This document shows positions 3,668 to 52,033 of a DNA stretch of 64,000 nt, in pieces (position 1 is the first letter of the stretch; each line of letters starts with the position of its first letter). A model generated the notes under the pieces. The model made no database searches. It saw only the letters and a program-made list of their open reading frames with translations, and was not told where the DNA came from. The stretch covers positions 248,001-312,000 of the forward strand of contig CP129495.1 in assembly GCA_030584185.1 (NCBI GenBank), written 5' to 3'. A program made the translations under genes and the position numbers. The stretch is from Acidimicrobiia bacterium. Lineage in GTDB: Bacteria > Actinomycetota > Acidimicrobiia > Spongiisociales > UBA11373.

Positions 3668-4996
3668 TCACGACTCCCCGAAGACGATCCCCACCTCGGC
3701 ACCGCCGCCGGCACGATTCCTGGCCACCACCTGCCACCCGTGTTGTTCGGCGACAGCGGCGACTATCGCCAGCCCCAGGCCGGATCCCGGCATCGAACGG
3801 GCGGCAGCAGAGCGATAGAACCGCTTGAACACGAAGGGAAGGTCATCGGGCTCGAACCCGGGTCCCCGATCGCGGACCATCAGGGTGGCGGCGTCGAACG
3901 AAACCTCGATCACACCATCGGGCGGGCTCCACTTGACGGCGTTGTCCACCAGGTTCCCAATGGCGCGCGTCACGGCCGCCCGACGCCCCTCGAGTTCGAC
4001 CGGCTGCCCCGAGACCCGGATCTCCTGGTTGGCACGACGCCGGGCCCTTTCCAGCACCTCGCTCACGACCTCTCCCAAGTCGACCCGACCGACTTCCTCC
4101 TCGTCCCTCCCCACGGTGGCCAGGTCGACGAGTTCCGCAACCAGCGAGCCGAGCTCCTGAACCTCGGCGGCAAGGTCGGCCAGCATCGCCTCGCGGTCGC
4201 TCTCGGGAACCCCGCCTCGCGCCAACAGCTCCACGTTGGTGCGGACGCTGGTCAGCGGTGTTCGTAACTCATGGGAGGCATCGGCTACAAGCCGTTGCTG
4301 GGCGGCCCGCGCCGTCTCCAGGCGGGCGAGCATCTCGTTGAATGCTGCAGCCAGGCGACCGACCTCGTCGTCCGACTCCACCGGTATTGCGGCATCGAGC
4401 GCCCCTGTGGCCGCCACATGCTCCGCCGCTCCGGTGAGGGTCTGCACCGGACGGATGGCACGGCCGGCAAGAGCCCAGCCGCCGACTCCGGCGAGGAGGG
4501 CCCCGAAGACGCCGATAAGCAGCAGACGGTTGCGCAGTGCGGCCAGGAAGGCCTCGGTCTCGGTCAGGTCGCGTGCCACCTGCAGTGCCGACCCGCGGGC
4601 GGCGCGGCGGGTGAGCAATCGGTAGTTGGTTCCGTCGATGGCCTCGGTGCGAAGCCATTCAGGGGCCGACCCATCCTTCACCGCCAGGTCTCGCGGAACC
4701 ACGGGCAGCACGACGGTTCCCGACCCGAGGGAGACGACGGACCCATCGGGCAGGATGACCTGGGCGATCACGTCCTCCCCCACCACCTGCCCGGCCTCAC
4801 CGCGCGGCATCGCCTCCGGGTCCAGCCTGCCCGCCACGTCGATGACCGCCGCCAGCGGCGCCCGGACCTTCAGGAAGCGGTCGATGGACGCCATCGCCTC
4901 GTTCTCCGCCGAGCGATAGGCGGCGAAGGTGACCAGGCCCACGGTCACCGCAACCGCGGCGGCGACGAACGCCGCCAGGCGGGCGCGCAGGCTCAT
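3668..4996 (-). CDS. sensor histidine kinase (MprB-like)
   Basis: A 442-residue membrane sensor kinase. It has transmembrane helices at about 7-25 and 157-178 around an extracytoplasmic sensor of about 130 residues, a HAMP domain (about 180-228), an H-box with phospho-acceptor His242 in [12 protein letters not shown], and a HATPase_c domain with [22 protein letters not shown] and GSGLGLAI. The start ATG overlaps the stop of the response regulator by 4 nt (ATGA), so the two are coupled. HAMP and H-box resemble the mycobacterial envelope-stress sensor MprB, but the sensor domain gives no hint of the signal. It ends 17 nt from the convergent lipoprotein gene with no hairpin visible. Confidence 0.9.
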
Positions 4997-36812: not shown

Positions 36813-38759
36813 TCACTGCTCAGCCGGGCTGTACCAGAGCTCCATGTTCCAGGTGACCGCCGAACTGGTCGGGTTGTGCTTGAAGTTGCCCACCCGATCG
36901 CTCCACGCCGCACCCGGGTCGAGCCGGGCGTACAGCGGGATGAACACCGCCTGATCCGCCAGGATGTTCTCCATCTCGGCGATGTAGGCGATCAACGCCG
37001 TCTCGTCGACGGTGGAGTTCGCCAGGTCACGCAGTTCGGCAAACCGCTGCGAGTGCTCGTCCACGAGCCCGGGGCCCTGGTCGTAGTTGCCCTGGCCGGT
37101 CACGGCCGGCGAACCGTAGCGGTAGTAGTTGTAGCCAGCGGGCGGCGACTGCTCGCCATCCCACACGTCGTGCATCCCGATGAGCTCCGAGAAGCCCGGA
37201 GCACCGACCCATGCCCACTCGCCGAGGTCGAACGAACCGAAGTCCGTCGTCTCGCCGAAGAACAGGGTGCTCGGCTCGAGAGCGATCGTGAACTCGAGCG
37301 GGAAGCCGTACTGGTCCTCGGTGAGCGCGCTCACGTCGGCGAACATGCCAGAGAGCAGCTGTGCGATCTGCTCACGGGCCGCGTTGCCGGCCGTGGTCGA
37401 GAACACCGAACGCGGCGGCGTCGTCGCGCAATCCACGCCGTCCTTCGAGCAGAGCTCGTTGAGGAGGTCGGCCGCCTTCTGCGGGTCGTAGTCGTACTGC
37501 GCCCAAGAGCCCTGGGACAGAGTCGGGGAGAAGACGTCGACATAAGAGTCGATCGGCTCCACCTGGCCGGCGAGGATCTCGTCGACGAGCAACTCCTTGT
37601 TGGTCAGGTGCGCCACCGCCTGGCGGTACTCCAGGTGCTCGTTGTAGGAACCACCGTTCTTGAAGAACCGGTTCTCACCGAACTGGAAGTTCAGGTGCTC
37701 CCAGACGGCGCCCGAGAGCACCTCGACCTGGGCACCCTGCGGCGCCAGCGCCTGCAGCTCTTCGATCGTGCCGATCGAAGGCGGCGGGTTGATGATGTCG
37801 ACTTCCTTCTCCTTGAAGGCGTTGACCAGGGTCGTCGAGTCCGGAACGAACTGGAACACCACGCTGTCCAGGTAGGGCAGCGTCTGACCGGTGGCCGGAT
37901 CCTTGCGCCAGTAGTTCGGGTTGCGAACCACCTTGAGGAACTGACCCTTCTCGTAGGACTCAAACATGAACGGACCACCCGACAGCCACATGGTGTCGTT
38001 GTAGTCGTTCACGAAGTCGGAACCCTCGACGTCATGCTTCGGCAGGATCACCCCGAAGATGAACTCGAACTGGGTGGTCGGGGCGGCGAGGGTGTACTCG
38101 AACGTCTTCTCACCAGGAGTGGTGGAGATGATGTCCTCGTACACCGTCTTGGCGATCGGCAGGTCCTCGTCCATGATCATCTCGTACGTGAACTGGAAGT
38201 CGTCACCCGTGATCGAGGTGCCGTCCGCCCACATCGCCTCGGGGACGATGTTGTACCTGACGGTCATGGTGCAGTCTGCGTTCACCGTCACGCCGCCGTT
38301 GGCCACGGTCGGCAGCTCGGTGACCAGCACCGGAATCCGCTCCAGGGTGAACCCGTCGACGGTCGCAACGCCGGTCCAGTAGGCGTTGCCCACGATGGAC
38401 ACGATGAAGTTGTTACCGCCCGGGATGAACGTGTTCAGCGTCGGGGGCTCCTGCTCGTTGGCGTAGATCACCTCGCCGCCGTACTGGATCTCGGGATCCG
38501 TCGGCTCCGGATAGGTCACCTCGGTGGCCATCTCCGAAGTCGGGGCCGGCGACGGCTCGCAGGCCGGCCCGGCCTCGGTCGTGGTGGTCGTCTCACCAGC
38601 CGTGGTCGTGGTCTCCTCCGCGGCCTTGGTGGTCGTGGTCTCGGCTGCTGCAGTGGTGGTCGTGCCGGCGTCGTCGTCGCCACAGGCGACGACCACCAGC
38701 GCGAATGCCAGCAGCAGGCCCAGCCACGCCACACCCCGGCGTTGCTTGTTGTGCTTCAA
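36813..38759 (-). CDS. oppA: oligopeptide/dipeptide ABC transporter substrate-binding lipoprotein
   Basis: A 648-residue family 5 solute-binding protein. It starts at TTG 38759, six bases after AAGGAGGAG; there is no ATG or GTG at the right place. Signal peptide ends in lipobox LVVVAC. A long Thr-rich spacer (TTTTAAAETTTTKAAEETTTT) lifts the domain off the membrane. The SBP_bac_5 fold includes LSGGPFMFESYEKGQFLKVVRNPNYW and ends before residue 648 (WNMELWYSPAEQ). It captures peptides or related compounds for OppBCDF; specificity is unknown. Confidence 0.9.
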   Translation of the reverse strand: MKHNKQRRGVAWLGLLLAFALVVVACGDDDAGTTTTAAAETTTTKAAEETTTTAGETTTTTEAGPACEPSPAPTSEMATEVTYPEPTDPEIQYGGEVIYANEQEPPTLNTFIPGGNNFIVSIVGNAYWTGVATVDGFTLERIPVLVTELPTVANGGVTVNADCTMTVRYNIVPEAMWADGTSITGDDFQFTYEMIMDEDLPIAKTVYEDIISTTPGEKTFEYTLAAPTTQFEFIFGVILPKHDVEGSDFVNDYNDTMWLSGGPFMFESYEKGQFLKVVRNPNYWRKDPATGQTLPYLDSVVFQFVPDSTTLVNAFKEKEVDIINPPPSIGTIEELQALAPQGAQVEVLSGAVWEHLNFQFGENRFFKNGGSYNEHLEYRQAVAHLTNKELLVDEILAGQVEPIDSYVDVFSPTLSQGSWAQYDYDPQKAADLLNELCSKDGVDCATTPPRSVFSTTAGNAAREQIAQLLSGMFADVSALTEDQYGFPLEFTIALEPSTLFFGETTDFGSFDLGEWAWVGAPGFSELIGMHDVWDGEQSPPAGYNYYRYGSPAVTGQGNYDQGPGLVDEHSQRFAELRDLANSTVDETALIAYIAEMENILADQAVFIPLYARLDPGAAWSDRVGNFKHNPTSSAVTWNMELWYSPAEQ

Positions 38760-38815
38760 AGCGCTCTCCTCCTTGTTGGTTCGCCCGGAAACGGGCCATC
38801 GTCCCCCGAAGGGCT

Positions 38816-39049
38816 TCATTCGAGCACCCACGCCAGGGCGAGGGTGGTGAAGGCGAAAAGGACGGCCACGGTCACCGTGATCCGGTTGAGGTTGCGCTCC
38901 GCCAGGGTGGAGCCTTGCACTCCACCCAGCGGGCCCATGCCCCCACCGAACGCCTCCGAGATCCCGCCACGGCCGGCGTGCAACAGCACGAGACCGATCA
39001 AGGTCAACGAGAGGACGAGGTGAAACGCGATGGCAATCGCCGCGATCAA
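38816..39049 (-). CDS. secG: protein translocase subunit SecG
   Basis: A 77-residue membrane protein with two helices (about 5-23 and 56-75) and the conserved loop LLHAGRGGISEAFGGG. It supports SecYEG-dependent export. It starts at TTG 39049 just after AAAGGGAG. It lies upstream of oppA (57 nt) and downstream of gpmA. Confidence 0.9.
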   Translation of the reverse strand: MIAAIAIAFHLVLSLTLIGLVLLHAGRGGISEAFGGGMGPLGGVQGSTLAERNLNRITVTVAVLFAFTTLALAWVLE

Positions 39050-39147
39050 ATGGCTCCCTTTCCAAACGCGCAGCCCGCGTCTCGGCGGACCGCAGCCGCA
39101 AGTATGAATGAGCGGACCCCCCGCCGCAAGTCGTTCGGGGTGGTCTC

Positions 39148-43751: not shown

Positions 43752-45578
43752 TCAGCCTCCTGTGAGGACACGGCGCAACTCACCGGCCACGGCTCGGGGC
43801 ACCACAGCCGCCAGCTCGTCGATGTTCGCCTCCCCCATCCGCCGCAGCGAGCCGAAGGCCTTGAGCAGCGCCCGCTTGCGGGCCGGTCCGATTCCGGGAA
43901 CCTGATCGAGCACGGAGTCAACCATACGACGACCACGCAGGGTCCGGTGGTATCCCACGGCGAACCGGTGGGCCTCGTCGCGGATCTGCTGCAAGAGATG
44001 CAGAGCCTGGCTGCCCCGACGGATTCGGACCGGGTCCGGACGCCCCGGCAGCCACACCTCCTCCATGCGCTTGGCCAGGCCGGCCACGGGCACTTCGATG
44101 CCGAGTCGCTCCACGACGCTCGCCGCCCGGCTCACCTGCCCCACGCCGCCGTCGACCAACACCAACGATGGCGGGTAGGCGAACCGCCCCCGCTCCCCCA
44201 CAGGCCGCTCCCGTTCGGCGAGCAGGGCGCCAAACCGCCTGGTGAGGATCTCCTCCATAGAGGCGAAGTCGTCCTGCCCTGCCACGGAACGAACCTCGAA
44301 GCGCCTGTAGTCGGAGGGACGGGGCAGCCCGTCCTCCATCACCACCATCGAGCCCACCGTGTGTCGCCCCTGGATCGTGGAGATGTCGAACGCCTCGATG
44401 CGCAGAGGCGGCTCGGGGAGGCCAAGCTCCTCCTGGAGGCTGCGCAGTGCACGTGCCCGGGCGCCGTGGTCGGAGGCGCGCCGCAGGCGGTGACGGGAGA
44501 ACTCCTCGCGGGCGTTGACGCGCGCCGTGACCATGAGCCGGGCCTTGGCACCGCGCTCCGGCACCCGTACCCCCACCCTCGAACCGCGCCGCCGGGAGAG
44601 CCACGCGGTCCACACTTCCACGTCTTCCGGGAGCTCCTGGACCAGGACGTGCGATGGTGGGCGCTCCTCCCCGTACACCTCACGCAGCAGGTTCCCGATC
44701 AGTTGGGGTGTGGTCAGGTCCTCCACCTTGTCGACGACGCTGGTGGCCCGTCCCGTGACCCGGCCGTTGCGGACCGAGAGCACCACCAGCACCGCCTCCA
44801 GGTCGTCCTCCTCGATGGCGATCAGGTCGAAGTCCTCCCGTCGCGGAGATGCAACCTCCTGGCGCTCCAGGGCCCGTTCCACGGCGGCGAGGCGATCCCG
44901 AATCCGTGCCGCCTTCTCGTACTCCATCGCCTCCGATGCGCTTGCCATCTCGGAGCGCAGCTCGGCCACCACTCCGTCGCTGCGACCGGAGAGGAAGTCG
45001 GACAGCCCCTCGACATGGCGTCGGTACTCGTCGGCGCTCACCTTGCCGACACACGGTCCGCTGCAGCGCTCGATGTCGAACAGCAGGCACGGCCTTCCCA
45101 GGGCCGAGTGCCGCTTGAACTTCCCGTTGGAGCAGGTCCGAACCGGGAAGGTCCGCAGCACCAGATCGAGGGTCTGGCGGATGGCGTAGGCGTGGGCGTA
45201 GGGCCCGAAATGGCGGTTTCCGGGACGACGCCGGCCCCGCATCACGGTGGCCCGCGGCCACTCCTCGCTCGTCGTGATCGCCAGGTACGGGTACGACTTG
45301 TCGTCGCGCAGCCTCACGTTGAATCGAGGCCGGTACTTCTGGATGAGGGTGTGCTCGAGGATCAGGGCCTCGACCTCGTTGTCGGCGACGATGGTCTCCA
45401 CGGACTCGGCGGCCTCGACCAGGGCCCGGGTGCGAGGCGGAGCGTCGACGCCGAAATGCCCTGCGACCCGCTTGCGCAGCGACTTGGCCTTGCCCACGTA
45501 GAGCACCGCCCCGGCGGCGTCACGGAACATGTAGGCGCCAGGGGCGTCGGGCAGCTCCGCGGGGGGAGGACGGCGCAC
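43752..45578 (-). CDS. uvrC: excinuclease ABC subunit C
   Basis: A 608-residue repair nuclease. GIY-YIG domain at about 10-90 (DAPGAYMFRDAAGAVLYVGKAKSLRKRV), Cys-rich part (CLLFDIERCSGPCVGKV), UVR motif (about 205-235, SASEAMEYEKAARIRDRL), RNase H-like endonuclease domain (RIEAFDISTIQGRHTVGSMVV) and a C-terminal helix-hairpin-helix (VPGIGPARKRALLKAFGSL). Makes both incisions around lesions handed on by UvrAB. GTG 45578 follows a TAGACT box by six bases. Confidence 0.97.
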   Translation of the reverse strand: MRRPPPAELPDAPGAYMFRDAAGAVLYVGKAKSLRKRVAGHFGVDAPPRTRALVEAAESVETIVADNEVEALILEHTLIQKYRPRFNVRLRDDKSYPYLAITTSEEWPRATVMRGRRRPGNRHFGPYAHAYAIRQTLDLVLRTFPVRTCSNGKFKRHSALGRPCLLFDIERCSGPCVGKVSADEYRRHVEGLSDFLSGRSDGVVAELRSEMASASEAMEYEKAARIRDRLAAVERALERQEVASPRREDFDLIAIEEDDLEAVLVVLSVRNGRVTGRATSVVDKVEDLTTPQLIGNLLREVYGEERPPSHVLVQELPEDVEVWTAWLSRRRGSRVGVRVPERGAKARLMVTARVNAREEFSRHRLRRASDHGARARALRSLQEELGLPEPPLRIEAFDISTIQGRHTVGSMVVMEDGLPRPSDYRRFEVRSVAGQDDFASMEEILTRRFGALLAERERPVGERGRFAYPPSLVLVDGGVGQVSRAASVVERLGIEVPVAGLAKRMEEVWLPGRPDPVRIRRGSQALHLLQQIRDEAHRFAVGYHRTLRGRRMVDSVLDQVPGIGPARKRALLKAFGSLRRMGEANIDELAAVVPRAVAGELRRVLTGG

Positions 45579-45621: not shown

Positions 45622-48492
45622 TCACAGGCCCCAGTAGTACTCGGGGATGCAGTAGATCGCCAGCATGTACCCCAGCCAGGGCAGCAGGCACCAGGGCACC
45701 AGCCAGCACGACTTGCGATGGATCAGCTCCCACTCGTAGCCGTGATCGACGTACCACCAGCCGAGGAACGGGAAGAAGAACACCGGGAACCACCATCCCC
45801 ACCACGGTGTCAGCCAGCCGACCCAGTAGACCACCCATCCGAAGTAGATGAACGCCAGGCCCCACATCCACGGCTGCCACCACGGGCGGCGCACCGCCCG
45901 GTACCACAGGTACAGCCCCGCCCAGGGGAGCCAGAAGACGGGGAAGAGCAGGCCCCACTCGGGAGCCCCTACCACGTACATGGCGACTGCGGCACCCACC
46001 AGGTGCCCGCCCACCCAGTACCACATCCACGGCCGCCACCAGGTCCTATGCCGTGCCCACCACCAGGCGCCCCAGGGGACGATCACGAACCAGGGCAGCA
46101 ACGCCCACCACCACCAGTTGGGACGGAAGAACCACAGCCCGGCGAGCAGGAAGGGGACCCACAGCCAGCACACCACGAACCATGGCAGCCAGCAGGTCCA
46201 CCACTCCTCCTCCTTGTAGTGGTTGAACACCACGCACAGGAGGCTCAGGGCGAAGAAGAGAAGGATGACGAAGCACCACCAGGGTCCCCAGAGCGGGATC
46301 CACCAGGCGAAGAACGGGATGAAGGCGAAGGGCAGGATCCAGCACCACTTGGGGCCGTGGATCTCACGCCACGAATATCCGTGGGACACGAACCACCAGC
46401 CGAGGAACGGGAAGAACACGACCGGGAGCCACCAGGCCCACCACGGGGTCAGCCAGCCGACCCAGTAGAAGGTCCAGACCACGTATCCGAGGCCGAGGAA
46501 CCACATCCAGGGTTGCCACCAGGGCCGCCGCCGGGCCCGGTACCAGAACCAGAACCCGACCCAGGGCATCCAGAACAGCGGGAAGAGCAATCCCCACTCG
46601 GGCGAGCCGACCAGGATCATCCCCAAGGCGAGGGCCACCAGGTAGGCACCCACCAGGTACAGGTACCAGGGCCGCCACCAGGTGCGGCGGCGGGCCCACC
46701 ACCAGGCGTATCCGCCGACCACCGGGAACCAGGCGAGGAGGGGCACCCACCACCAGGCGGGCACCCACCACCACACCCCGGCCAGCAGGAACGGCACCCA
46801 GATGAAGATGACGATGAACCAGAAGATCCAGCAGGTCCACCACTCGTAGGTCTTCAGCCACAGGTAGAGCACGCAGATGAGGAACGCCACGAAGAGGATC
46901 AGGATCGTCCAGCACCACCAGCAGGGGTCGGTGGTGGTCTCCGGGGTGAACCGCTCCCGGGTGCGGGTTCCGGTCGTGGCGGCGGGAACCGTCGTGGTGG
47001 TCGTGCTGGTGACGCTGGCGACCGGCTGCGAGGTCTCGGTCGTCGCCGGCTGAGTGGTCGTGGTCTCCTCGACCACCGTGGGCGGCGGCTCCAGCTCTTC
47101 GCCGGTGGTGCAGTCGTACACGGGGTGGTTGCCGTCGTGACTGGCCGGATCGTCGGTCGGGACCACGTCCTCCGGCTGGATGGTCACCACCTGCGAGGTG
47201 TACTGGAACTGGCCGTCCTCGGTGGCCTGGAAGCCGCCGTCGAGCGAGATCTGGAACGGGTTGCCGTCGTACTCGAACGGCGTGCCGAACAGGATCGACC
47301 CATCGGAGAGGATGAACGCCGAGGCCCCTTCGAACGGTCCATCGGCACCGGAGCCGAACACCTCCGACTCCCCGGCGTGGGTCTGGAATCCGACGTACCG
47401 AGACGGATAGGGAGCGTCGGGACCGTCGAACAGTCCGACCTGGAGGTAGTCGCTCCAGTATCCGACCGGTGGCATGCCACCCCAGGGAGTGGCCGTGCTC
47501 ACGCGGAACCACAGTGTCCCGTCGCCCTTGTTGACGAAGGGGGTCACCCCGGTCGGGTCGAACTCCCCGGGCAGACCGGGGACGAAGGTGCGCGGATGCG
47601 ACGGCCAGAACGAGTCCTGGCCCAGGGGCACGCCCGGAGCCGTGATCACGGCGTCGCCGGCGCCCGAACCCCAGCGATGATCTCCGGCGTAACGCACCCC
47701 GATCGTCGGTGGCGGGAACCCGGGGACGAGGGCACTGGTTAGGGCGACCCCGATGATGATCACCGCCCCGTACACCAGGAAGAACCCGTTCAGTTCCTGG
47801 GGAAGCACCTGCCCCCCGTTGAACAGGTAGAAAGCCAGCCTCCACGGGTCGGGTCCGTAGGTCAGGCTCATCACGAACGAGGCCAGGTTCCAGGTGTCGT
47901 CGGGGAACTGGCTGAGGGCGATCCACTGCGCCAGGCCGGCTATCAGCAGCGGGAAGTCCCACTGGGAGTAGACCATGTCTCCGCTGCCGGTGGTGGGCTG
48001 GCGGAACCCGCTCACCGATCCCGGCATCGGGATCTCGTCGCCGAGCACCACCGTGGCCACGGCATAGGGCTGGTTGAGCATGGGACCGCCGGCGGTGCCG
48101 CCGACCACCATGCCGTCGCCCTCGGTCACCCCGTCGCCGATGTCGGGCAGGGTGTCCGGGTCCTGCCACATGACGTAGTTGAGCCCGACGGCGGTGGGAA
48201 CCGTCCACGGGGCGTCATCGGCCGAGATGGTCGCCGGCTTGGAGGCGTCGCCTCCCCGCCCGAAGCGAGAGGTGTCGTCACCGACCGGGTTCAGCGTGGT
48301 GGCGAACTGCTCCGCCTGGTCCGCGGAGAGGTTGAGCTGGCCCTCGAGGAGATCGACGAGCTGGGTGGTGTCACCGGCTGCGGTCTGGTACCCGGAGGCG
48401 ATCGCCGGCGTTGGTGGCAGCAGCACCGCCACCAGCATCGTGGCCAGGATCAACACCGAGATCCGGGGCTTGCCCCTCACACGCCTCCCCAC
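45622..48492 (-). CDS. exported protein with tandem tryptophan-rich membrane repeats
   Basis: A 956-residue protein whose C-terminal domain I do not recognise. Signal peptide about 1-33 (RISVLILATMLVAVLLPPTP); an ectodomain to about 235 with one helix at about 236-256; a beta-rich part about 260-450; a Thr/Pro linker about 470-522. Residues 523-956 are extremely aromatic: by hand count 91 of 434 residues are Trp. Two units, 551-720 and 764-933, are aligned without gaps at a 213-residue offset with about 107 of 170 positions identical. The motif R-x-R-x-W-W-x-P-W occurs four times. Third positions are almost all G/C, and repeat differences include many synonymous changes, so the frame is real. 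Start GTG 48492; GTG 48480 is an alternative. It lies 14 nt behind a methyltransferase gene in the uvrA operon. Confidence 0.85.
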   Translation of the reverse strand: MGRRVRGKPRISVLILATMLVAVLLPPTPAIASGYQTAAGDTTQLVDLLEGQLNLSADQAEQFATTLNPVGDDTSRFGRGGDASKPATISADDAPWTVPTAVGLNYVMWQDPDTLPDIGDGVTEGDGMVVGGTAGGPMLNQPYAVATVVLGDEIPMPGSVSGFRQPTTGSGDMVYSQWDFPLLIAGLAQWIALSQFPDDTWNLASFVMSLTYGPDPWRLAFYLFNGGQVLPQELNGFFLVYGAVIIIGVALTSALVPGFPPPTIGVRYAGDHRWGSGAGDAVITAPGVPLGQDSFWPSHPRTFVPGLPGEFDPTGVTPFVNKGDGTLWFRVSTATPWGGMPPVGYWSDYLQVGLFDGPDAPYPSRYVGFQTHAGESEVFGSGADGPFEGASAFILSDGSILFGTPFEYDGNPFQISLDGGFQATEDGQFQYTSQVVTIQPEDVVPTDDPASHDGNHPVYDCTTGEELEPPPTVVEETTTTQPATTETSQPVASVTSTTTTTVPAATTGTRTRERFTPETTTDPCWWCWTILILFVAFLICVLYLWLKTYEWWTCWIFWFIVIFIWVPFLLAGVWWWVPAWWWVPLLAWFPVVGGYAWWWARRRTWWRPWYLYLVGAYLVALALGMILVGSPEWGLLFPLFWMPWVGFWFWYRARRRPWWQPWMWFLGLGYVVWTFYWVGWLTPWWAWWLPVVFFPFLGWWFVSHGYSWREIHGPKWCWILPFAFIPFFAWWIPLWGPWWCFVILLFFALSLLCVVFNHYKEEEWWTCWLPWFVVCWLWVPFLLAGLWFFRPNWWWWALLPWFVIVPWGAWWWARHRTWWRPWMWYWVGGHLVGAAVAMYVVGAPEWGLLFPVFWLPWAGLYLWYRAVRRPWWQPWMWGLAFIYFGWVVYWVGWLTPWWGWWFPVFFFPFLGWWYVDHGYEWELIHRKSCWLVPWCLLPWLGYMLAIYCIPEYYWGL
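45694..46203 (-). repeat. Trp-rich membrane unit, copy B (residues 764-933)
   Basis: Begins EWWTCWLPWF, includes RHRTWWRPW, APEWGLLFP, RRPWWQPWMW, GWLTPWWGWW and FFPFLGWWYV. Aligned to copy A at a constant 639-bp offset. Confidence 0.85.
46333..46842 (-). repeat. Trp-rich membrane unit, copy A (residues 551-720)
   Basis: Begins EWWTCWIFWF, includes RRRTWWRPW, SPEWGLLFP, RRPWWQPWMW, GWLTPWWAWW and FFPFLGWWFV. Conserved blocks are those rich in Trp, Pro and Arg; the lipid-like stretches between them vary. Confidence 0.85.
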
Positions 48493-48506
48493 GCGACGGC
48501 CCGAGG

Positions 48507-49213
48507 CTAGCGAACCTCTTCGTCCGATGTCGGGTGCACTCGGCGCCATCTGCCGCCCAGGAGCCTCGGGATGCCGACCTGGGCAGCGAGGATGGAATCG
48601 CCGCCGGCGAGCACCGGCCGCTCCTCGAGGGTCTCGAGACACCACCCGGTGGCGGCGAACGACGAGAGCAGCGAACCGACCGGGCGGTGATGGAAGCGGA
48701 CCCGGCGCCCTCCGGCCGGTTCGTCGCTGTGGCCGGGCGCCAGGTAGGCGCCCCATCGCCACGAGACCTCACCATCTTCGGGGTCGATCAGCGGACCCGA
48801 GGCGGGGGCGGTGAACACCGGATGGTTGAGCACCACCGCCAGCCACCCGCCCGGGGCCACCACCCGGGCGACCTCGGCCAGGACCGGCTTCGGGTCGTGG
48901 AGGTGCTCCAGGACCAGGACCAGGTAGGCGCCGGAGAAGGTGCTGTCACCGAAGGGGAGAGACTCAAGGTCGGCCACCGCCACCAAGCCCCCGTCCGATG
49001 CCCGAGCGGCCAGGTCACGGGATCGATCCACGCCGACGGTCTCCCCGAACCTGCCGAGAAGGCGACCATCACCGCAGCCGCCGTCGAGAAGGATCCCGGT
49101 CGCCTTCTGCGGGATCAGGGATGCCAGCAGCGGATCGACGTCCTCCCGGTAGGCGGGATCGTCGGCGACCTCCTCGACCCACCAGGCGGCGAGGTCGCCG
49201 TCCCAGGCATCGC

Positions 49214-49217
<4 letters not shown>
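48507..49217 (-). CDS. SAM-dependent methyltransferase (class I, Methyltransf_11-like)
   Basis: A 236-residue enzyme. SAM motif I is [18 protein letters not shown] (about 42-58), motif II region [20 protein letters not shown], motif post-[35 protein letters not shown]. The substrate is unknown. GTG 49217 shares GTGA with the uvrA stop, so it is coupled to uvrA, and it is followed 14 nt later by the Trp-rich protein gene. The three look like one operon. Confidence 0.88.

Positions 49218-52033
<2,816 letters not shown>

Follow-up and report, generated by a model that had tools for sequence, protein, structure and literature searches.

The locus and the architecture of the gene X protein

The window analyzed here, a 64,000-nucleotide stretch of an Acidimicrobiia genome (contig CP129495.1, positions 248,001 to 312,000), contains the gene order uvrB-uvrA-methyltransferase-X-uvrC-rapZ. 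Gene X lies in an open reading frame of the minus strand (45622-48762), and its likeliest start is the GTG at 48480, which has GGGGAGG just upstream. With the stop at 45622, the whole gene (45622..48480, minus strand) would encode a surface protein of 952 amino acids, a delimitation based on the open reading frame and on full-length and partial homologues; residue numbers in the first-pass annotation of this DNA were counted from the GTG at 48492 instead. The upstream neighbor (48507..49349, minus strand) is a SAM methyltransferase, matching Pfam Methyltransf_11. The downstream neighbor (43752..45578, minus strand) is presumably uvrC, as named by its sequence; its homologues were found in 20 of 20 genomes searched, the syntenic copy being 56-75% identical. 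Elsewhere in the window, a family-5 extracellular solute-binding lipoprotein (SBP_bac_5; 36813-39101, minus strand) was noted for its Thr-rich low-complexity N-terminal stretch, within which lies a tandem repeat at 38602-38664.

As is usual at high GC content, long open reading frames of the plus strand overlap gene X, and it could be argued that the minus-strand frame is an artefact, the true product being a proline-rich plus-strand protein, or nothing at all. We consider the chance of this negligible. The minus-strand frame is open in eight of eight genomes, and the differences among homologues are commonest at the third codon positions of this frame, which are nearly all G or C, as first reported (GC3 of 0.95). 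The Trp-rich domain described below shows purifying selection both between genomes (dN/dS of 0.25-0.45 in the six compared) and between its two internal units (dN/dS of 0.39), all values falling below 0.5. Moreover, the start codon has a ribosome-binding site, and a signal peptide and a stalk share the same frame. The open frames in eight genomes and the codon-position divergence refute an artefact, and the original view of a real protein under selection is upheld.

The architecture of this protein, read from its sequence and from comparison with homologues, is well supported as a predicted signal peptide, an extracellular part, a Thr/Pro stalk and a polytopic, Trp-rich membrane domain, all coordinates being on the minus strand. 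The signal peptide, VRGKPRISVLILATMLVAVLLPPTPAIA(SG), occupies 48397..48480, and the N-termini of the homologues are comparable. Ectodomain 1 (47600..48396, approximately 265 amino acids) was delimited, with approximate limits, by homologue alignment and is optional; ectodomain 2 (47080..47590, approximately 165 amino acids) was delimited by the alignment A5 and a genome search. The Thr/Pro-rich stalk (PPPTVVEETTTTQPATTETSQPVASVTSTTTTTVPAATTG...) spans 46924..47088, and similar stalks are seen in the homologues. The Trp domain then opens with CWWCW at 46923 and extends over 45625..46923 (433 amino acids, 91 Trp, approximately 16 predicted transmembrane helices).

Tryptophan content and internal duplication

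The last 435 residues of the protein contain 91 Trp (21%), along with 54 Leu, 40 Val, 39 Phe and 36 Pro, in agreement with the initial description of a domain of about 434 residues with roughly 21% Trp. The richest 150-residue stretch of the domain has 38 Trp, whereas the corresponding figure for every other open reading frame of the window, in all six frames, is 16 or less, and neighboring genes such as uvrA, uvrC and polA encode only 0.3-0.8% Trp. To our knowledge, a stable and selected domain with approximately 20% Trp lies at the edge of known protein composition.

Self-comparison of the domain produced one dominant offset of 213 residues, at which the identity was 54% and the BLOSUM score was 20 standard deviations above that of shuffled sequences of the same composition; the exact 213-residue period proposed earlier is thus confirmed. 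Unit 1 (46204..46842, 213 amino acids) and unit 2 (45625..46203, 193 amino acids) indeed align without a gap, with 107 of 186 residues identical. By eye, each unit divides into four hairpins of approximately 53 residues, designated b, c, d and e, and each hairpin consists of a helix, a turn of the VPAWWWVP, GSPEWGLLFP or LTPWWAWWLP type, another helix, and a turn of the RRRTWWRPW type. Unit 1 comprises hairpins b, c, d and e; unit 2 comprises b', c', d' and the opening half of e'. Since an e-type hairpin is cut at either end of the domain, which starts with the second half of one and stops after the first half of another, the overall order is (e)-b-c-d-e-b'-c'-d'-(e').

The weaker repeat of about 53 residues that had been proposed within each unit held for some of the hairpins. 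Profile comparison by hhalign documented homology between hairpins c and d, with a probability of 95.7 and a score of 41.8, whereas column-shuffled controls scored no higher than 17.9. Support for homology between b and c was weak, and for e none was shown; a simple score at offset 53 reached a z of 4.5, yet did not exceed the best chance offset. Similarly, the motif R-x-R-x-W-W-x-P-W, previously counted four times, is exact in three copies, whereas the fourth copy is V-R-R-P-W-W-Q-P-W. In a tree of the units, all first units separated from all second units with a support of 100/99, indicating that the duplication predates every sampled copy. A domain with a single unit also exists naturally (L006), and genome G008, which has one unit, carries a first unit by the same tree.

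Predicted topology and residue conservation

The Trp domain is well supported by sequence-based prediction as a series of approximately 16 short transmembrane helices with both termini outside. Summed over eight sequences, 139 Lys and Arg residues fall on predicted inner loops as opposed to 12 on outer loops. The signal peptide and the ectodomain outside the cell require the same topology as this charge bias, so that two independent lines agree on the orientation; with the N-terminus outside and 16 helices, the C-terminus would also be outside. In this predicted topology, the cytoplasmic turns are rich in Arg and the outer turns in Trp, Pro and Cys. The Trp share is 24-28% in interface and turn positions versus 9-14% in the helix cores. 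The two inferences of the first-pass annotation that concern the membrane, namely a multi-pass domain and belts of Trp and Arg at the interface, are therefore borne out, the latter as a statement of location. No column of the helix cores retains a charged residue in the eight sequences, and the only core column that is frequently polar, column 235, is a non-conserved mixture of His, Leu, Arg and Asn.

The limits of the helices were taken from the secondary structure of AlphaFold models together with the 213-residue period, which was used for unit 2, and are approximate since the models are weak. The AlphaFold secondary structure nonetheless placed nine helices per 240 amino acids at the assigned positions. 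The unit model, made with four sequences, had a mean pLDDT of 52 and a pTM of 0.35, and the full-domain model, made with two sequences, had a mean pLDDT of 44 and a pTM of 0.34, which is too poor for fold assignment; the sequences supplied for modeling were those of the window and of L013.

Conservation among the abundant residues is highest for Trp and Pro. Across the seven copies with two units, 60 of the 91 Trp and 20 of the 35 Pro never vary, compared with 4 of 31 for Gly and 6 of 40 for Val. Cys is invariant in columns 1, 4, 31, 217 and 425, all of which except column 31 are predicted to lie on the outer side.

Homologues and their distribution

Intact homologues of the Trp domain were found in seven other genomes, with Trp content retained at 16-20%. 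Four of these (G007, G010, G012, G008) belong to the window genome's own family, and three (G385, G924, G925) to a single genus, whose family lies in a different order of Acidimicrobiia. The G010 copy is identical in sequence to one in the Acidimicrobiia MAG OFTM344 (L013). A profile of the unit was searched against each of the 138 genomes in the order, 395 in the class and 222 in the second family, as well as a phylum-wide sample of 396 genomes, and among these the domain was detected in the two families of Acidimicrobiia only. Outside Actinomycetota, the coverage consisted of one exact-peptide scan; viral contigs and plasmids contained no relatives of the domain. That the G385 copy stems from contamination was considered and rejected, because three genomes of the genus carry the domain in different surroundings, which makes a stray contig unlikely.

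The carriers place the gene in at least four gene contexts. No neighbor of X is common to the three carriers of the distant genus, none is common to both carrier lineages, and the distant genus does not preserve the uvr surroundings. Among 13 other members of the window's family, X with a Trp domain was found in four, X with a single transmembrane helix in one (G005), and a remnant in one (G002), while in the remaining seven the methyltransferase adjoins uvrC with nothing between them. In G002, the last 39 codons of gene X are left between the methyltransferase and uvrC (L030:7398-7514), and a frameshifted piece of unit 2 lies on another contig (L031:2981-3340); gene X is decaying or deleted in this genome. 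The uvrC of G002 also looks frameshifted, and assembly errors may contribute. The loss of most of the gene in G002 and its absence from seven of the 13 family members indicate that the Trp domain is dispensable.

A family of surface proteins with exchangeable membrane modules

A signal peptide and a Thr-rich stalk can be read in the window protein and its homologues alike. Ectodomain 1 is absent from four homologues (L004, L005, L071 and L072, of genomes G007, G010, G924 and G925), all of which retain ectodomain 2 and the stalk. Ectodomain 2 is present in all Trp-domain homologues checked, and also on proteins that have no Trp domain; in the class sample, its profile A5, which includes the window's own sequence, had matches in 11 genomes besides that of the window protein. 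At the same locus as gene X, L007 has the same ectodomain and stalk on a single transmembrane helix followed by a cytosolic domain, and at other loci L079-L083 have them on a single helix followed by varied cytosolic regions. This single helix with a cytosolic domain is the commonest variant outside the Trp group, and the window protein has the Trp domain in its place. In G005, at the same locus (L032:8600-11450), both ectodomains and the stalk precede a single helix and a Cys-containing C-terminal region of approximately 400 amino acids that has no match in Pfam; a similar C-terminal region was seen in L081, of another family. These relatives indicate that several membrane modules, the Trp domain among them, are interchangeable on a shared surface chassis.

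Two of the single-helix proteins deserve mention. In L082 (G002:C24), FFFGWWTPPWGAPRRG directly follows the transmembrane helix, and might represent a simple precursor of the Trp/Pro/Arg turns. In L048 (G015, approximately 4354-4905), a relative of ectodomain 1 (L009) is found on a single-helix protein, the C-terminal 120 or so amino acids of which (FVHFCAYLSG...YHAAISLGD) resemble an NlpC/P60-type fold by eye; Pfam returned nothing significant for them.

Database searches

Searches of Pfam, NCBIfam, PHROGs and PDB sequences, with single sequences as well as alignments, retrieved nothing significant for the Trp domain or the ectodomains, and the original statement that no known family has this composition thus stands within the families tested. 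The best E value of a PDB profile search with the Trp domain was 0.91. When nine units were scanned against Pfam-A with E values up to 10, TspO_MBR was not among the matches. The weak matches to 5TM-5TMR_LYT, MerC and DUF5658 were obtained with single members, as was Fn3_arc (E = 0.003, one ectodomain member only); these were below the curated cut-offs or were treated as chance. No paper was found in the literature on a Trp-rich Acidimicrobiia protein, or on such a domain more broadly.

Possible function of the Trp domain

The reading that we favor, although tentatively and with a little less than even confidence, is that the Trp domain anchors a secreted, stalk-bearing surface protein in the membrane and provides a platform for it. 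Trp prefers the membrane interface, and the Trp/Pro/Arg ends of the helices would accordingly be expected to lie among the lipid headgroups at either face of the membrane. There they may fix a wide, rigid and lipid-gripping platform, which would display the ectodomain and perhaps cluster or sort it into particular membrane regions, replacing the single helix and cytosolic domain of the other members of the family. Counted for this reading are the occurrence of the same ectodomain and stalk on single-helix proteins and on the Trp domain, the Lys/Arg bias, the interfacial Trp, the lack of conserved charge in the cores, the conservation of Trp and Pro, the placement of four of the five invariant Cys on the predicted outer side, the dN/dS of 0.25-0.45, and the helix placement in the AlphaFold models. 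A more specific proposal, which we regard as possible but doubtful, is that of a new class of polytopic domain, generated by hairpin duplication, in which girdles of conserved Trp and Pro at the two faces form an interface layer that organizes specific lipids underneath the displayed protein.

Since 16 conserved helices far exceed the needs of an anchor, the real job of the domain could be transport, ligand binding or signaling. The main rival, which we consider possible but less likely, is a domain for ligand binding or translocation, the Trp-rich cavities of which would bind a flat or cationic hydrophobic ligand, such as a hopanoid, carotenoid, tetrapyrrole or quaternary amine, that the ectodomain delivers or senses. 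Binding of aromatic or sterol-like ligands, as first suggested for this domain, is likewise conceivable. It would explain the extreme conservation of Trp and Pro, and two similar multi-helix units are found in many transporters; there is also a precedent in TspO, a membrane protein rich in Trp for which interaction with tetrapyrroles is described (PMC4926414, PMC8243069). However, the helices contain no conserved charged or polar residue, Trp is enriched at both faces rather than in the middle of the membrane, a one-unit version exists (L006), the two carrier lineages share no neighbor gene, and neither a transporter nor TspO was matched in Pfam. A sensory role ranks third and is distinctly improbable: the ectodomain would sense the outside and the polytopic domain would relay the signal, as in receptors of the 5TM and 7TM types. 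The occurrence of alternative C-termini on the same ectodomain, cytosolic domains included (L007, L081, L079), is indeed reminiscent of receptor families, and 5TM-5TMR_LYT was the best Pfam match of unit 1, albeit a non-significant one (E = 1.2). Nonetheless, the Trp version has no cytosolic domain, its C-terminus is predicted to be outside and its inner loops are short, and the swapped cytosolic modules that were tested match no signaling family in Pfam.

The UV absorption that was once suggested for this domain is the least probable role by far and was rejected. Each chain does offer 91 Trp, and the uvr-X gene order is shared by the window and five other members of the family, so that a UV screen or another UV-linked protein might be imagined. 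By our own estimate, however, 91 Trp amount to approximately 5e5 per M per cm, and one protein per 16 nm2 would give an absorbance of approximately 0.005, such that a membrane fully packed with the protein would absorb only about 1% at 280 nm. Furthermore, the same uvr cluster occurs without X in half of the family, and the other carrier lineage keeps X in unrelated surroundings.

Whichever function applies, this domain, with its approximately 20% Trp and no profile in Pfam, NCBIfam or PHROGs, offers a natural test of the roles of interfacial Trp and Pro in membrane proteins.

Comparison with known systems

The family of Trp membrane domains appears to have remained undescribed so far, and it is possible that it represents a wholly new structural class. 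TspO/TSPO is likewise a Trp-rich polytopic membrane protein, but it has five helices, approximately 160 amino acids and a lower Trp content, whereas nine helices are predicted for a one-unit Trp domain and approximately 16 for the full domain, which is built of two units and joined to an ectodomain and a stalk. Conserved charged or polar residues within the transmembrane segments would be expected of a secondary transporter; the helix cores of the Trp domain keep no charged residue and have only the one variable polar column (235). The SPW repeat (PF03779) consists, like the Trp domain, of short two-helix hairpin repeats of approximately 50 residues, the first turn of which often reads S-P-W. 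It was nevertheless rejected as a relative, as hhalign of the unit profile against eight SPW members gave a probability of 0.3% and an E of 0.19 over 15 columns; the SPW repeat was not found in the window's genome.

Runs of Trp, Pro and Arg resembling the RxRxWWxPW turns also occur in peptides of the indolicidin and tritrpticin type, and indolicidin binds lipid bilayers (PMC12421676). These are, however, free host-defence peptides of 13 residues, and the likeness is one of composition, with no homology. The single-helix surface proteins of Acidimicrobiia (L007, L079-L083) have ectodomain 2, the Thr-rich stalk and the signal peptide in common with the window protein, and differ from it in that one transmembrane helix and a cytosolic domain stand where the window protein has the Trp domain. 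With the same ectodomain on single-helix anchors, and with the natural one-unit version, a built-in comparison set for the Trp domain is thus at hand.
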